Shown here: positions 2,346 to 15,405 of the stretch, piece after piece | Layout: each line of letters opens with the position of its first letter | Numbering within the stretch: position 1 is the stretch's first letter | Assembly (NCBI GenBank): GCA_013331535.1 | Contig: DUGF01000056.1 | Span: forward strand, 1 to 15,993 | Direction: 5' to 3' | Source of the DNA: Microcaldota archaeon | GTDB lineage: Archaea; Micrarchaeota; Micrarchaeia; Anstonellales; Bilamarchaeaceae | Length of the DNA: 15,993 nucleotides | Translations under genes and position numbers: made by a program | The notes under the pieces: generated by a model | What the model was told of the DNA's origin: nothing | Database searches by the model: none | What the model saw: only the letters and a program-made list of their open reading frames with translations

Positions 2346-2639
2346 TTACTTCTCAATCTCAAATTCAGAATAATTCTTTACCGGAAGATGAAATCCGGGT
2401 TTGCCTTCCATGCAGATTTCCATTGATTCGACGAATGCACCATCCATATTTTTCACATTTATTCCGCGTGCAAAACGGGCTATTGCATTCTCATCATTCC
2501 CCTCTGCGAAGATTTCAACATCTCCATTATCGAGATTTTTTGCATATCCGCGCACGTTCATTCTTTCCGCTATCGAACGCACAAATGCGCGGAAGTACAC
2601 ACCCTGAACAGTTCCTTTAACGATTATGTTGCATTTCAT
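2346..2639 (-). CDS. acyP: Acylphosphatase
   Basis: Small enzyme hydrolysing the carboxyl-phosphate bond of acyl phosphates. The 97-residue product has normal family length and both signatures: GTVQGVYFR near the N terminus, containing the phosphate-binding loop and catalytic Arg, and GYAKNLDNGDVEIFAEG, containing the catalytic Asn. The frame extends upstream to 2879, but that part is the tRNA-Asp gene, so the ATG at 2639 is the true start. It lies 41 bp after the tRNA 3' end; a TTTATATT stretch (about 2673-2664) 25-34 bp upstream could be its own promoter. A GGCGA motif sits just before the ATG. Confident assignment. Confidence 0.93.
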   Translation of the reverse strand: MKCNIIVKGTVQGVYFRAFVRSIAERMNVRGYAKNLDNGDVEIFAEGNDENAIARFARGINVKNMDGAFVESMEICMEGKPGFHLPVKNYSEFEIEK

Positions 2640-2674
2640 TTCGGTCGCCCCTTTCTTTCTTCCAATATAAAAAT

Positions 2675-2680
2675 AAAAAA
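2675..2680 (-). terminator. Oligo-T terminator after tRNA-Asp
   Basis: Six T residues directly follow discriminator G73 on the minus strand, with a second five-T run a base or two later. Typical of archaeal intrinsic termination, which needs only a T run. Confidence 0.65.
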
Positions 2681-2694
2681 CGCCCCCACCGGGA

Positions 2695-2722
2695 AATTCG
2701 CCGTTTCCCGAAAGGAAACTGT
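2695..2722 (-). other. tRNA-Asp intron 3 (T-loop, 59/60)
   Basis: A 28-base intron, near minimal size. BHB: helix TTCG with CGAA, bulges AAA and TTT, then an intron stem CAGTTTCC with GGAAACGG (one mismatch) capped by a short loop. Splicing joins TTCGAA to T CCCGG and makes a consensus T arm. Non-canonical position. Confidence 0.9.
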
Positions 2723-2743
2723 TTCGAACCCGGGTCGCGAGAG

Positions 2744-2829
2744 AACCACAATCCATTTGACTAGTAAAGATTCGGGGCTTTTCCGTTGAAACGCCTTTGC
2801 CCTGAATAATCCCTGTGTCAAAAGGATTC
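2744..2829 (-). other. tRNA-Asp intron 2 (anticodon loop, 37/38)
   Basis: An 86-base intron at the canonical archaeal position. BHB: bulge CAG after CTGT, bulge TTC after GTGG, intron helix AATCC with GGATT. The central four-base helix CTGT/GTGG is mostly wobble pairs, weaker than at the other two sites. Splicing joins CTGTCA to C TCTCG and makes a perfect five-pair anticodon stem. No ORF of note inside. Confidence 0.88.
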
Positions 2830-2852
2830 TGACAGTCTCGTATGCTAGACCA

Positions 2853-2904
2853 GTATGCGCAATCCGTACCAGGACCCAAGACGTTGGACCGAAGACTGAT
2901 TACT
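2853..2904 (-). other. tRNA-Asp intron 1 (D-loop, after position 15)
   Basis: A 52-base intron. BHB motif: four-base helix GTGT (2910-2907) with GCAT (2858-2855, wobble end pairs), bulges AGA on the 5' side and ACT on the 3' side, and a six-base intron helix GTAATC with GATTGC. Cutting after the second base of each bulge joins ...GTGTAG to TGGTCTA..., restoring a normal D loop. The D-loop position is non-canonical. Confidence 0.88.
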
Positions 2905-2948
2905 CTACACTATAGAGGCGTGAATATTTGTAATTCTCAGGCGAAGTG

Positions 2949-2956
2949 TTTTTATA
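2949..2956 (-). promoter_or_regulatory. TATA box of tRNA-Asp
   Basis: TATAAAAA on the minus strand, ending 30 bp before the mature 5' end. With the usual spacing transcription would begin near 2926, leaving a short 5' leader for RNase P to remove. Confidence 0.7.
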
Positions 2957-2981
2957 TTATGGGGATTCTTCCTACCGAAGC

Positions 2982-8984: not shown

Positions 8985-11591
8985 TTATCCTTTCATTTCA
9001 AGAACCATCCTCTCGAATTCGTCTATTGTCAGAAGAAGAACGGATTTTGCATCAACTTCAAGCTTTAGGGTTATTGGTCCTGCGGATGAAGAGGACAGAA
9101 TATCCTGGAACTCGCGTTTGCCGTCTTCGTTTTTGAATATTACCATGGAGATTCCCTTCTGCGCTGTTTTCAGAGCATTGCTTATAAGAGATTCCATTCT
9201 TTTTTCGTCCCCATCTTTATCAAAAATATGAACGCGCATTTCCTGTCCGATCATATCCATTTTTGTATCGCATTCTGTTTCTTCTCCAAATTGTGTGAAT
9301 GGGATAGCATTATTCACGAAGATGTCTCTTAGTTTTCTGAAAATGCAAAGATACCCTGAACTTCTCTTACTTTCTTCTTCCCATACTGAGGGACAATAAT
9401 AGCCTATTGATTCCCTGACCACGTCTTTTTTCACCAGATTGCCGAGTATATACTCTACGTTGTAATCGGATATATACACGGTTCGTCCTTCTTTCATAAT
9501 TTTTCTGAATCCGTTCTTTACTTCGGTAGTGTTGAGTGGGGTATACTTCCACCTATAATCTGTATTGACCTGGCTGAAAATAGAAATAAATTCAGGTGTT
9601 GTTATTGAAATCTTTGTTTTGGTTATTGGCGGGAAATCCGGGACATCCAGTTGGTACATCACTTCTTCTTTTCTTGCAAAATATACTCCTACCCCAAGGA
9701 TAAGAATACTCATTACTCCTATTACGATGAAAACCGGGTCCTCGAAAATAGTAGCAGCCCTGGCATATGAAACCGGAACGTCCTTTTCTATTTCGCCCAT
9801 TTTGAATTTGAAGGTATAATCCCCGAATGGTAATTTATCCGAGCCAGGCACACTTTTGCTTACATCTACTGATATTTGGGATACGTCGCTGAATTCGTAT
9901 TTTCCGTAACTATCTCCCTTCTTTGATTTTACTGTGACTTCAACATTTCTTATGACTACCGGGGTTCCTTCCTTTTCAAATGCGAATCGTATTATCTGTC
10001 GTTCCTCTTTATCATAGAGTTTTTTAACATCTACAAAAACCACATGAAGGAATGTTTGGGCATATCTATTCCCCGCCTCATCTTCTATACTTGCAATATA
10101 ATCCCCACTATCCAGGTTTATCGGAAGATAATCTGTTAGTTCGGTCTGAATGTTTATTGGCACTGTTTTGAGCAGTTTTCTCTCTCCAACCAGCTCACCA
10201 TTTTTTGTTATAGCTACGTAAAGGTACTTTTCTACACCTGTTTTTTCATTTAGGGTTAGTATTATCGGAACTTCTTCATTTGTTATTTCAGTTGGTGCTA
10301 CTGTGAACCCGCCGCTGATATACCATGAACCAGCCGCTTCCTTCTTTATTTCTGCTATCCTTAGTTCTCCAACGTCGTCTCCATTTACATCCTTCCCGGT
10401 AAGGTCTATCTTTACGTATCTTGTTTTCCCCTTGAAAATATTTGTGAAGAAATCCTCGATGTGGGTTTCATTGTCAAGGGATTTTTTGTTATATGTTATT
10501 CCCTCTGGGTTATCTGGGGTTGCCCATGCAGTTTGAATAAGCAGTTTCGCAACATCCTTTGCAGCAGCTTCCGGATCTCGTTTCCATCCCCCATCAAGCG
10601 TTTGCGGGATAAAAATCAACATTCCATTTTTTCTTCGGATAGCACTTACCGAACCATATATTATAGAATTGGAGTCTCCAGACGTTCCTTTTGCAACATA
10701 CAACGGCTGGTAAAGGTTTAGTCCATTTGTGAGTAAATCTTCTTTTTCATCAAACGAAACGCCAGCATTCTTTAAGGCATTTTCCGGAGTTGAAACCAAT
10801 AGCCCATTTTTCAGGATCATCTTGTCAAACTGAAGGCCAAGATACACTATGTTCACTCCTTTTTCTGTCAGTTTGTTCATGTCGATTGAGCTTTCAATTC
10901 CAAATAATTCCTGTGGCATCCTTCCATGTGGTATCAATAGAAACGCGCCTTTCGGAATTGTTTCAAGTTGTTCAAGGTCAAGTTCGTTTACGCTTATTCT
11001 TTTCTTTGCCATTTCCTTTTTCAATATCGCTCTGAAATCCGCATATTTTGTCGTCTGAGCTTTATCCATCGGACTGGATAGAATAAATACCTCCGAAGGA
11101 ATTCCCATCTCATAAGTCTTGAAGTTCATGGTGAAATTTTGAACACCATCTGTGTTGTATCGCAGTCTGATATACCCTATACTCGTATTATCTTTTTTGT
11201 CTCCCGCAGTGATTACTCCACCATCCTCTATTGTAGTGTTGAGTTGAGGCGACAGCACGAGTCTTGAAGTGAAATACATCTGCCCTGCCTTTGCGCTCTG
11301 GGCATAAAAATATAATCCTCCGACGAGAAGTAGCATAAGTACCATAGCAATAGTTGCCGCCATTATCCAGGTGTTTTTCTTTGGTTCTACTCCATCAGAA
11401 GGCCTGCCTATTGTCTGACTTTTGGATGCAGCAACTTTATCGAGAGGTTTTGAGAATATTTTTGAAATCTGCTTGCGAATCTGTTCTATCGGGCTTTTTT
11501 GTTTAACCCTGAATCTGGAGATATGCTGGTATCTTTTTCTTACCTCGAAACGGTAAATTTTTTTTATAATTTTTATCTTTTTAAGTTCCAT
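8985..11591 (-). CDS. Large two-TM membrane protein of the VirB4-like operon
   Basis: An 868-residue protein, last gene of the operon. Residues 1-74 are a basic, probably cytosolic segment. TM1 is about 75-97 (WIMAATIAMVLMLLLVGGLYFYA). Residues about 98-615 would face outside: strand-rich, with a segment (GAFLLIPHGRMPQELFG...KGVNIVYLGLQFD) resembling a Rossmann/amidotransferase-like fold, then beta-sandwich-like stretches (YVAITKNGELVGERKLLKTVPI, SGDYIASIEDEAGNRYA). TM2 is about 616-639 (FIVIGVMSILILGVGVYFA). The C-terminal ~229 residues are cytosolic and contain a winged-helix-like stretch (YISDYNVEYILGNLVKKDVV) and an alpha/beta domain (MRVHIFDKDGDEKRMESLISNALKTAQKGISMVIFKNEDG). Function not known; the topology suits an envelope-spanning scaffold or receptor coupled to the ATPase. 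It begins 60 bp after the preceding gene. Confidence 0.85.
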   Translation of the reverse strand: MELKKIKIIKKIYRFEVRKRYQHISRFRVKQKSPIEQIRKQISKIFSKPLDKVAASKSQTIGRPSDGVEPKKNTWIMAATIAMVLMLLLVGGLYFYAQSAKAGQMYFTSRLVLSPQLNTTIEDGGVITAGDKKDNTSIGYIRLRYNTDGVQNFTMNFKTYEMGIPSEVFILSSPMDKAQTTKYADFRAILKKEMAKKRISVNELDLEQLETIPKGAFLLIPHGRMPQELFGIESSIDMNKLTEKGVNIVYLGLQFDKMILKNGLLVSTPENALKNAGVSFDEKEDLLTNGLNLYQPLYVAKGTSGDSNSIIYGSVSAIRRKNGMLIFIPQTLDGGWKRDPEAAAKDVAKLLIQTAWATPDNPEGITYNKKSLDNETHIEDFFTNIFKGKTRYVKIDLTGKDVNGDDVGELRIAEIKKEAAGSWYISGGFTVAPTEITNEEVPIILTLNEKTGVEKYLYVAITKNGELVGERKLLKTVPINIQTELTDYLPINLDSGDYIASIEDEAGNRYAQTFLHVVFVDVKKLYDKEERQIIRFAFEKEGTPVVIRNVEVTVKSKKGDSYGKYEFSDVSQISVDVSKSVPGSDKLPFGDYTFKFKMGEIEKDVPVSYARAATIFEDPVFIVIGVMSILILGVGVYFARKEEVMYQLDVPDFPPITKTKISITTPEFISIFSQVNTDYRWKYTPLNTTEVKNGFRKIMKEGRTVYISDYNVEYILGNLVKKDVVRESIGYYCPSVWEEESKRSSGYLCIFRKLRDIFVNNAIPFTQFGEETECDTKMDMIGQEMRVHIFDKDGDEKRMESLISNALKTAQKGISMVIFKNEDGKREFQDILSSSSAGPITLKLEVDAKSVLLLTIDEFERMVLEMKG

Positions 11592-12905: not shown

Positions 12906-14486
12906 TTAATCCTCTAGTATTACCTGGGTTATGTCCCTTCCACCAAGCTCGTTTTTCTTTATATCTACTTTCCCGAATATGTTTATTATTGTTATATCGT
13001 CTATTCCGGCATCCTTTAGAAAGTCGCTTATATTTCTTCGCACTAGTCCGTATCTTTCCATGAGAATGACGAACGAAACAACATCTATGTGTCTATTACT
13101 TTTTTCGAACAGTTTGGATATTTCCTCTATTTTCTCATCACTGAGTCCATACTGTCTTACGCGTCTTCTGAATTCCTCTTTTACAAAAGCAACTGATTTT
13201 GCCATAGCAATATCCCTCCGTTGTGCAGTGCTAAGAACCTTGTCCAGATCAAGGAAGAATTCCATGGACGGTTCTTCCCCCTCTATTTTATCCAAAAGGA
13301 ACGTTGGTGGGTAAGGGGTTGATGAATGGAATGCCATATTTATTGCGCATTGTCCAACCCCTAGTTTTGCTATCTCATTTCTCATATAATGACTGAAATT
13401 AAGCGTTCCCTGCAGATAATCCAGGAATCTCTCGAATTTTACCTTGAGTATAAACGTAGTGCCTACGTTGCTGAAAATAGCCTCGCTAATATCTGTAGGA
13501 TTTTGGCTTGCCACTATTAATCCGAAATTGTATTTTCTTCCTTCCCTTACTATCATCACTGCATCACTATTTTCTTCTTTTGCAATTTTCCATGCTTCGT
13601 CTATGACAACTATGAGTCTTAGTCCTTTTTGTTTTGCCCATCCGGATGCTCTCATCTTTTCCTTTACAAATTGAAGAACCGTAAGTGCGCCAAGAGCTCG
13701 AAATGTTTCATCCGGCAGTCCGGAAAGATCCAAGTCAACAAGTCCCGAGGTTACTAAAGCATCAAGACTTACTGTGCTTTGCTGCGCAAAGAAATCTTCT
13801 CCGCTTTTTGTGAATTGTTTGAGCCTGTATATCGCATTTTCAAGCTCTGCCGGGATTTCATATGTGCCGAGTTTTGATTGCTCCTCCAGTATGCGGACCA
13901 CGTCCTTTAGCGTTGGCGGACTAAGCGGCTTTCCTAATTCATCTTTGTGATCAAGGGAATCCATCTTGTATTTGTTTTCCATATATGACTTTTCAATTGC
14001 CTGTTCTGTGAGTCTCCTTTGTTCTGGATAATTCGCAATATCTGTAAGCAGCTCGAGCGTTCTGACAACCTGTTTTATCCGGTCATACGGTTTCATTCCT
14101 CCCAAATCCAACAGGTTGAGATAAGATCCTTTACCGAGTGAAATTACTTTCCCATTCGTTTGTTTTACCCAATCCTTGTATTCTCCTGCCCAGTCAAATA
14201 CCAGTGCATTCGAATCCCATACAAAAGACGCGCGCAATAGGAATGTTTTAATAAAATAGCTTTTTCCGCTTCCGCTTATCCCTACGATGGAGATGTGTGG
14301 GTTCGGCACATGTTCGTATGACCAGTAAAACGGAACGTGAAAGACTCTGGTCCTTCCCACATATATTGAATTTGCCGGATCTGCGAATATTATCTCCGCC
14401 GGAGGCTCGGGAGGGTGAACAAGAAGATTTCTTTTGGAAATTTCTTTGTTCGATATTTTACTGATTTTTATTTTTCCGCCAAGCAT
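12906..14486 (-). CDS. VirB4/HerA-like ATPase
   Basis: A 526-residue motor of the FtsK/HerA/VirB4 P-loop superfamily. Seen: an N-terminal beta-rich part (1-60), Walker A GISGSGKS (69-76), FDWAGEY (97-103) at the position where HerA proteins have DPHGEY, an all-helical insertion, Walker B LIVVIDEAW (291-299, Asp296-Glu297), REGRKYNFGLIVASQNPTDIS (314-334) with the conserved sensor Gln328, and LGVGQCAI (375-382). About 120 further residues at the C terminus form a charged helical region not usual in short HerA proteins. It lacks the large N-terminal VirB4 domain, which seems to be supplied by the upstream gene. GGTGAT (14500-14495) lies eight bases before the ATG. Expected to form a hexameric ring at the membrane and drive protein or DNA transport; the substrate is unknown. 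DNA pumping in repair (HerA-NurA) is less likely, since no nurA is nearby. Confidence 0.92.
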   Translation of the reverse strand: MLGGKIKISKISNKEISKRNLLVHPPEPPAEIIFADPANSIYVGRTRVFHVPFYWSYEHVPNPHISIVGISGSGKSYFIKTFLLRASFVWDSNALVFDWAGEYKDWVKQTNGKVISLGKGSYLNLLDLGGMKPYDRIKQVVRTLELLTDIANYPEQRRLTEQAIEKSYMENKYKMDSLDHKDELGKPLSPPTLKDVVRILEEQSKLGTYEIPAELENAIYRLKQFTKSGEDFFAQQSTVSLDALVTSGLVDLDLSGLPDETFRALGALTVLQFVKEKMRASGWAKQKGLRLIVVIDEAWKIAKEENSDAVMIVREGRKYNFGLIVASQNPTDISEAIFSNVGTTFILKVKFERFLDYLQGTLNFSHYMRNEIAKLGVGQCAINMAFHSSTPYPPTFLLDKIEGEEPSMEFFLDLDKVLSTAQRRDIAMAKSVAFVKEEFRRRVRQYGLSDEKIEEISKLFEKSNRHIDVVSFVILMERYGLVRRNISDFLKDAGIDDITIINIFGKVDIKKNELGGRDITQVILED

Positions 14487-14545: not shown

Positions 14546-15355
14546 CTACACCATGCTTTCCTCAAGTTCCTGTGGGCTTGTAGGCAGTATCCTCTCCCAT
14601 TCAAAGCATTTGAGCATCTCGTCTGCTGTAAGCCATTCAATCTCTACGTTCAGGGAGTTTGCAAGAATTGATTTGAGTTCATTTGCCTGCACCTTCACAC
14701 CTGCAATCGCACCTTCCTTACTCACACCTGTTGCGGTTGTCATCGCATATGCGATTACTCCCATTGGTTTTATTCCCTTTACAAGTTTGTTCAGCTGAAG
14801 GTCCCACAGAGCAACCTCACGCTCGTATTTGTCAATCCTGAGAACATCCGGCTCTGGTTTTTCACGCTCTCGTGCAAGCCTTAACTGTGCCTCTGCCCTT
14901 TTTGCCTCTATGGTCTTTCTCTTTTCTCCGATATCCTCCACGTAAAGCAGGTATGCGATCTTTGTTACGTTTCTAAGGTTGGATATCGCGCGTTCAAACG
15001 ATTCGTTGTATAATACGTTTTCCTCGCTGCTTTTTTCGCTTGCGGATTCGAATATCTTTATTCCAAGGAAAGCTGAGGCATAATATATTCCCTGAGATTC
15101 TTTTACTATAACATCCTGGGAAGGCGGTATTTCATATCCAGTGTCTGTAATCATTATGGTCTTGGTTCCCTTTGTGATAAGTGGTATCATGATGTATCCA
15201 TAGCGGCTGAATAATATGCCTAACAGTCCGCCTATACCTGCGGCTATTCCTCCTATCATTGAGAATATTCCGCCGCCACCTATCATTGCAAAAAGTGCAC
15301 CTAAAAATGCAAGTCCTATTGACACATACATTAGGAGTTTGTTCTGACTGACCAT
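14546..15355 (-). CDS. Two-TM protein resembling VirB3 plus the VirB4 N-terminal domain
   Basis: A 269-residue product, first gene of the operon. The ATG at 15355 is preferred over the GTG at 15364, which forms part of a GTGAT ribosome site. Two Gly-rich TM helices (about 8-27 and 30-52) are followed by a soluble domain: a beta part (IMIPLITKGTKTIMITDTGYEIP), then SFERAISNLRNVTKIAYLLYVEDI, a long charged helix (143-190), GVIAYAMTTATG, and ANELKSILANSLNVEIEWLTADEMLKCFE. The last pattern (helix, 'L..LNVE.EWLTADE.L') resembles the N-terminal domain of VirB4/TrbE-type ATPases, where it precedes the motor domain. I infer a split VirB4, with this gene as the membrane-anchored part. A PrgI/VirB3-like role for the TM pair is also inferred. 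Confidence 0.83.
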   Translation of the reverse strand: MVSQNKLLMYVSIGLAFLGALFAMIGGGGIFSMIGGIAAGIGGLLGILFSRYGYIMIPLITKGTKTIMITDTGYEIPPSQDVIVKESQGIYYASAFLGIKIFESASEKSSEENVLYNESFERAISNLRNVTKIAYLLYVEDIGEKRKTIEAKRAEAQLRLAREREKPEPDVLRIDKYEREVALWDLQLNKLVKGIKPMGVIAYAMTTATGVSKEGAIAGVKVQANELKSILANSLNVEIEWLTADEMLKCFEWERILPTSPQELEESMV

Positions 15356-15405
15356 GTGTATCACTTTACCGAGGTTAAACAGCTGAAAGTGATTCTTAGA
15401 GGAGG

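Follow-up and report, generated by a model that had tools for sequence, protein, structure and literature searches.

A tRNA-Asp(GUC) gene with three bulge-helix-bulge introns in a Micrarchaeota genome, and the predicted structured RNA family of its middle intron

Multi-intron tRNA genes and mobile introns in Archaea

tRNA genes with three introns are known from the Thermoproteales, where they include the tRNA-Glu(UUC) and tRNA-Pro(UGG) of Pyrobaculum (PMC4390854, PMC4033280). Transposition of tRNA introns is also known in the Thermoproteales, by a mechanism that PMC4090602 gives as still unknown. The archaea ARMAN-1 and ARMAN-2 have multi-intron tRNAs together with an epsilon2 splicing endonuclease and relaxed bulge-helix-bulge (BHB) substrates (PMC12397907, PMC6379350, PMC4033280). 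Introns with BHB junctions occur in the 16S rRNA of Thermoproteales, some as short hairpins and many encoding homing endonucleases (PMC4496867), group I introns are present in the rRNA of Micrarchaeota (PMC6125680), and intron gain in Caldiarchaeum has been modelled via an integrating element (PMC3293823).

The locus studied here lies in a window of 15,993 nt (the whole stretch of DNA that was analysed). As a tRNA-Asp gene with three introns it is a known sort of gene; the variation lies in its middle intron. It differs from the multi-intron tRNAs of Thermoproteales in phylum and in endonuclease type, and in that one of its introns belongs to a covarying family. The data do not place the genome in the Thermoproteales: its endonuclease is ARMAN-2-like, and the relatives confirmed by the covariance model R2 (described below) carry Micrarchaeota-like titles. 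The likeness to the transposing introns of Thermoproteales is that similar introns recur in several tRNAs within one lineage, both at the canonical site and elsewhere; unlike those, the present introns belong to Micrarchaeota, have a common fold with a near-fixed A-rich loop, and are found in 16S rRNA too. With ARMAN-1 and ARMAN-2 the genome has in common the endonuclease architecture, predicted relaxed BHB substrates and the multi-intron tRNAs, whereas a search of 301 phylum genomes, which may not include ARMAN-1 or ARMAN-2, detected the intron family in its own taxonomic family alone. A BHB in 16S rRNA is likewise found in the Thermoproteales 16S introns, but the 84-nt element in the 16S rRNA of genome G022 has its homologues among the tRNA introns of its own lineage.

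A search of the open-licence literature found no description of a covarying BHB family, without a homing endonuclease, that is common to tRNA and 16S rRNA. How archaeal BHB introns move without homing endonucleases is an open question according to PMC4090602, and the computable fold, the 126 matches in 24 genomes and the filled and empty sites in relatives make such movement directly testable. Standard tRNA finders can also miss most tRNAs here, the tRNA model giving between 1 and 44 matches per genome across 37 genomes of this Micrarchaeota family.

The tRNA-Asp(GUC) gene and its junctions

A sequence-only reading of the window had proposed a tRNA-Asp(GUC) gene interrupted in the D-, anticodon and T-loops, with exons of 15, 23, 21 and 14 nt. 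The 73-nt product obtained by splicing these exons was identified by ARAGORN as tRNA-Asp(gtc), with a full cloverleaf, every stem formed and G73, which confirms the proposed exons, anticodon and discriminator base. The unspliced 239 nt gave no tRNA by ARAGORN, and the raw window gave no tRNA by Rfam and no Rfam match of any kind at E<=1, so that detection of the tRNA-Asp rests on splicing. The features of the locus are as follows.

2681..2919, minus strand: tRNA-Asp(GUC) gene with three introns (splicing, BHB solver and shuffles; the unspliced window gives no match)
2905..2919, minus strand: exon 1, tRNA positions 1-15, 15 nt (ARAGORN on the spliced product)
2853..2904, minus strand: intron 1, 52 nt, in the D-loop at 15/16, with degenerate 7-nt repeats (GTCTTGG-like); BHB 4/4, intron-side helix (h') of 8 pairs
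2830..2852, minus strand: exon 2, positions 16-37, 23 nt, including the anticodon GUC (ARAGORN on the spliced product)
2744..2829, minus strand: intron 2, 86 nt, at the canonical 37/38 site; BHB 4/4 (mostly G.U), h' of 11 pairs, exon stem of 5 pairs
2750..2828, minus strand: structured core of intron 2, 79 nt, predicted member of a repeated family (models R1 and R2; R2 match)
2723..2743, minus strand: exon 3, positions 38-59, 21 nt (ARAGORN on the spliced product)
2695..2722, minus strand: intron 3, 28 nt, in the T-loop at 59/60; BHB 4/4 Watson-Crick, with a 19-nt intron at this site in G028
2681..2694, minus strand: exon 4, positions 60-73, 14 nt, with G73 (ARAGORN on the spliced product)
2950..2959, minus strand: TATA-like box TAATATAAAA upstream of the tRNA (read from the sequence; resemblance only)
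2669..2680, minus strand: T-rich terminator-like run (T6-A-T5) directly 3' of the tRNA (read from the sequence; resemblance only)
2346..2639, minus strand: acylphosphatase gene, with its ATG near 2639 (PF00708 match)

The junctions were analyzed with a solver that scores 3-4-3 BHB junctions jointly with the cloverleaf. The proposed structure was ranked first with a score of 64.5, and the runner-up, at 64.0, was the same structure with the D-loop cut shifted by one base. A 3-4-3 BHB was returned at all three junctions (15/16, 37/38 and 59/60), each having four of four pairs in the central helix, which at the anticodon site consists of one C-G and three wobble pairs, while the intron-side helices of introns 1, 2 and 3 have 8, 11 and 8 pairs. 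Any solution at all was obtained for 445 of 1000 dinucleotide shuffles, with a maximum of 52.25, and none of the 1000 reached 64.5; the BHB geometry claimed for each junction is thus borne out.

Natural controls were provided by the tRNA-Asp orthologues of relatives. The orthologue in G018 has no intron, that in G003 has a D-loop intron only, and those in G028 and G039 have a T-loop intron only, the one in G028 being 19 nt long and located at the same site as intron 3. In two further genomes the solver answers were implausible and the genes were assigned by reading, giving a T-loop intron only in G012 and D- and T-loop introns in G004. Orthologues that lack individual introns at the proposed places confirm the junctions, with which the intron-free gene also agrees. 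A split or permuted tRNA was rejected, all exons lying in order inside 239 nt. At the level of sequence, the locus is confirmed as a complete predicted archaeal tRNA-Asp(GUC) gene with BHB introns. The acylphosphatase gene begins about 40 nt downstream of it, and the frame said to run from acylphosphatase into the tRNA is present as a long ORF (2346-2879, minus) that extends through the tRNA sequence, with PF00708 confined to residues 84-156.

The earlier reading had named a second intact tRNA-Asp(GUC), together with no expression of the present gene, as a finding that would speak against it. No second tRNA-Asp was found by spliced-sequence search of the genome, whose assembly is estimated to be 84% complete, such that another copy could lie in the ~16% that is missing; the gene described here is probably the only one. 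The same search also matched a tRNA-Gly on contig C56 and, where a contig ends, the 3' half of a different tRNA.

Other tRNAs of the genome were found to be similarly interrupted. With the tRNA model, five tRNAs scored over the cut-off and 17 places were returned at E<=10, among which the tRNA-Asp and two intron-bearing tRNA-Ala genes were absent. The solver, run with a position bonus, resolved 11 of 23 tRNA loci with no intron outside positions D15, 37 and 59; ten of these genes have 19 introns between them and one is intron-free. For the other 12 loci there was no solution, the positions were odd or markers were missing, and most of them carry introns by reading; a solver run without the position bonus covered 20 loci. 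Almost all tRNAs inspected in this genome bear introns by reading, and the tRNA-Asp(GUC) gene is not exceptional there. Triple-intron tRNAs had been described as known but rare, mainly in Thermoproteales; within this genome they are not rare, the tRNA-Glu(UUC) on contig C12 having introns at the same three positions as the tRNA-Asp.

Each of the three introns seems to have an origin of its own, namely heptad repeats, a structured family and a minimal hairpin, given that intron 1 is heptad-periodic and that its heptads occur genome-wide. Intron 1 has 23 matches at a 7-nt lag, a value as high being seen in none of 20000 mononucleotide shuffles, and the heptad GTYYYGN has 50 matches in the genome (overlaps counted apart) against 10 for the reversed control. 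GTYYYGN heptads occur both in tRNA introns and intergenically in this genome (G000).

The structured family of intron 2

BLAST placed copies of intron 2 elsewhere in the genome, in the D-loops of two tRNA-Ala genes, with identities of 86% and 83%. Two covariance models were built, R1 from four copies and R2 from 48 copies with the window copy left out. R1 recovered held-out copies in the genome of origin and matched 13 places there at E<=0.1, of which 12 are in tRNA context by reading and one (C3:4200-4277) is not. At the same threshold it matched 18 of 59 genomes, 17 of them from the same family and one (G029; weak, E=0.008) from outside it. R2 matched the core of intron 2 in the window with 69.1 bits (E=5.2e-13, and 3.1e-14 in a second search). 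No Rfam family matches the element. A group I intron was rejected, as Rfam gave nothing at E<=1 for the window and nothing for the element. The introns of the family are 59-89 nt long, as taken from automatic junctions that are the best of many registers and were used for lengths only, which is too short to hold the gene of a homing-endonuclease rRNA intron.

The fold was examined in a structure alignment of 54 matches at E<=2e-4 from 51 sources (51 sense and 3 antisense), drawn from part of the R1 matches. Across the 54 rows, both partners vary in 20 of the 21 pairs. Pairing cells amount to 87.9%, compared with 72.4% in shuffles and 18-48% in slid versions, and the covariation score is 0.440 against 0.188 in shuffles, with none of 500 shuffles as high; the alignment was fitted to the structure and its copies were found by the model, which favours the columns that the model holds. 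The seven unpaired A residues of GGCAAAA...AAAAGCC are A at a frequency of 0.96-1.00 in the 51 sense copies, and the two U columns of CCUUUUGAC are at 0.98-1.00. Two columns of the apical loop follow at 0.95 and 0.97. Conservation in the remaining unpaired columns lies between 0.38 and 0.84, and the mean for paired columns is 0.72. The loop conservation holds equally in the 32 weakest copies. Judged by this covariation, intron 2 is a predicted member of a structured RNA family, and the A-rich loop suggests a role in binding or tertiary contact.

All 51 sense copies were found, by a lenient rule and by eye, to be flanked by tRNA sequence, approximately 27 being in D-loops, 17 in anticodon loops and 7 in T-loops (L091 by its T-arm only). 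The lenient rule alone passes 47 of the 51 copies, but also 22.6% of 20000 random places, and an ARAGORN removal test, in which 99 registers were tried per locus, was therefore added. When only the element was removed, ARAGORN called a tRNA spanning the junction for 30 of the 51 sense copies, compared with 2 of 300 random places. Among the 21 copies without a tRNA call, several bear further introns; the window copy is one of the 21, its host gene having two other introns. The host calls over 78 rows, in which some loci are named twice, comprised 32 D-loop, 28 anticodon, 5 T-loop and 13 unclear cases. Known errors among them are L091, a T-loop copy called as D-loop, L150, L154, L156 and L159, which were given the wrong orientation, and again L156, a 16S copy miscalled as D-loop.

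Members were also detected outside the three usual loops. Locus L156 (G022:C76) is an 84-nt element in 16S rRNA with a 4/4 BHB at the junction between GGGATTAGAT and ACCCC, restoring GGGATTAGATACCCC. A copy at a different 16S site (L072, G013:C30) has flanks that directly adjoin each other in a 16S lacking the element; note, however, that in G013 the 16S match, element included, spans only 1180 nt, and the gene may be incomplete or misassembled. A further copy (L180) occupies a variable-arm site. For L093 (C3:4200-4277), L157, L158/L181 and L258, which are copies or weak copies, no tRNA or rRNA flanks were recognised.

The range of the family was explored across the phylum. Searched against 301 phylum genomes at E<=0.001, R2 gave 126 matches spread over 24 genomes, all of them among the 43 of its own family (by listing order) and with 1-14 matches each. 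The other 19 family genomes and all 258 remaining phylum genomes were blank in this search, which scored 15 candidates per genome under stricter filters, such that the absences are weak. A pattern scan of genome contigs returned 100 stretches, 37 archaeal (Micrarchaeota, 'archaeon' or 'ainarchaeum') and 63 bacterial. R2 at E<=0.01 confirmed 35 of the archaeal stretches, with 38 sense matches and one antisense, leaving L174 and L204 unconfirmed, and confirmed none of the bacterial ones; none of six pattern matches from a viral scan was confirmed at this threshold. Similar introns occur at different tRNAs and different positions of one genome, and 23 of the 51 copies have their nearest copy within their own genome, against a mean of 5.0 and a maximum of 17 in label shuffles. 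The number of family matches correlates negatively with that of detectable tRNAs (rho -0.59, 37 genomes), a value that ignores relatedness and is partly circular, because introns hide tRNAs.

The splicing endonuclease and the spread of the family

The non-canonical sites had been taken to demand a splicing endonuclease of broad specificity, and a candidate epsilon-type gene was found on contig C56. The 393-aa ORF matches PF01974 in two units and aligns over its full length with the ARMAN-2 epsilon EndA (4fz2/9w2k; E=1.7e-136, residues 3-393 against 4-387). In the alignment the catalytic Tyr, His and Lys and the Tyr-Lys of the ARMAN loop are retained, the residue roles being those given in PMC12397907 and PMC6379350. 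The broad specificity of the epsilon type is plausibly present in this genome. A search of 59 genomes gave PF01974 in 58, intron-poor ones among them, and in 51 of these the open frame is 382 aa or longer. As intron-poor relatives have it too, the enzyme permits the intron burst rather than causing it, and alone is no explanation of the spread.

Contig C22 of G000 (L007:1459-1989, minus) encodes a further, standalone protein of the endonuclease fold. Such a protein, with an open frame of about 113-213 aa, is listed for 35 of 37 family genomes, and in 12 aligned examples the catalytic His is replaced and the Lys mostly retained, as expected of a structural partner.

Given the tRNA-Asp junctions and the endonuclease gene, excision and ligation are proposed. 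One precursor transcript would carry all three BHB introns, which the predicted epsilon-type endonuclease would excise in the cell. After excision, a ligase would join the exons. We consider it highly probable that the locus is a working tRNA-Asp(GUC) gene with BHB introns cut by the epsilon endonuclease, and that intron 2 came from a spreading structured family.

That the family has spread is suggested by homologous introns at non-homologous sites and by nearest copies lying within one genome. The excised intron, or a DNA copy of it, may have been inserted at new places. The 3' end of the intron must pair with each new exon, and so a permissive enzyme would help imperfect insertions and might let fresh ones splice at once. 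The A-rich loop could be kept by a bound factor or a tertiary contact needed for spread. On one interpretation of these data, intron 2 would be one copy of a new kind of mobile RNA element that is not autonomous: a BHB intron family, marked by its common fold and a near-invariant A-rich internal loop recognised in trans, that inserts into loops of tRNA and 16S rRNA and has no homing endonuclease of its own. Its insertions would be nearly harmless owing to the permissive epsilon enzyme, and in some genomes it would have contributed to a burst after which hardly any tRNA gene can be detected with the standard model. This composite interpretation is tentative, and we place it a little below even confidence.

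Alternatively, recombination or gene conversion among tRNA genes, or integrating elements that carry a tRNA with its intron, could account for all of the spread, with the core reflecting recent ancestry and the need for a stable hairpin. Conversion would also produce the greatest likeness among copies within a genome, tRNA genes do have short identical stretches in common, and an integrating element has the Caldiarchaeum precedent (PMC3293823). Yet the same core is found at D-loop, anticodon-loop, T-loop, variable-arm and two 16S sites with unrelated exon flanks, and the near-invariant unpaired loop bases are unneeded for a hairpin. This explanation is considered unlikely.

Conservation of fold and loop would also suit a small RNA of the host that resides in introns, serves as a guide or regulator after excision, and is copied as a useful gene and not a selfish one; excised archaeal introns can persist as stable circles. 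A useful RNA of this kind fits poorly with a family that went undetected in 19 of the 43 family genomes and had 1-14 matches in the other 24 (under the stricter filters), and no Rfam family was matched; we regard this possibility as distinctly improbable. A decaying pseudogene, with the real tRNA-Asp in the estimated ~16% of the genome that is missing, was rejected as very improbable indeed, since the stems are all intact, promoter- and terminator-like signals are present, the junctions agree with intron-free orthologues, and other tRNAs of the genome are disrupted alike.

Some further features were noted in the window and the genome. Two window ORFs (8985-11591 and 14546-15364) have no Pfam match, and a VirB4/HerA-like ATPase is encoded at 12906-14486 (minus), under the CedB/CedD model cut-offs. 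The palindromic repeat GAACGAYRRNTCGTTC has 28 matches in G000, with none for the control, and is found intergenically and, by reading, inside tRNA introns (L001, L055, L057 and L088). Finally, locus L049 (G000:C3:126-192, minus) is tRNA-His-like with 5' and 3' acceptor strands that are unpaired as read; the gene may be split, interrupted by several introns, or misassembled.
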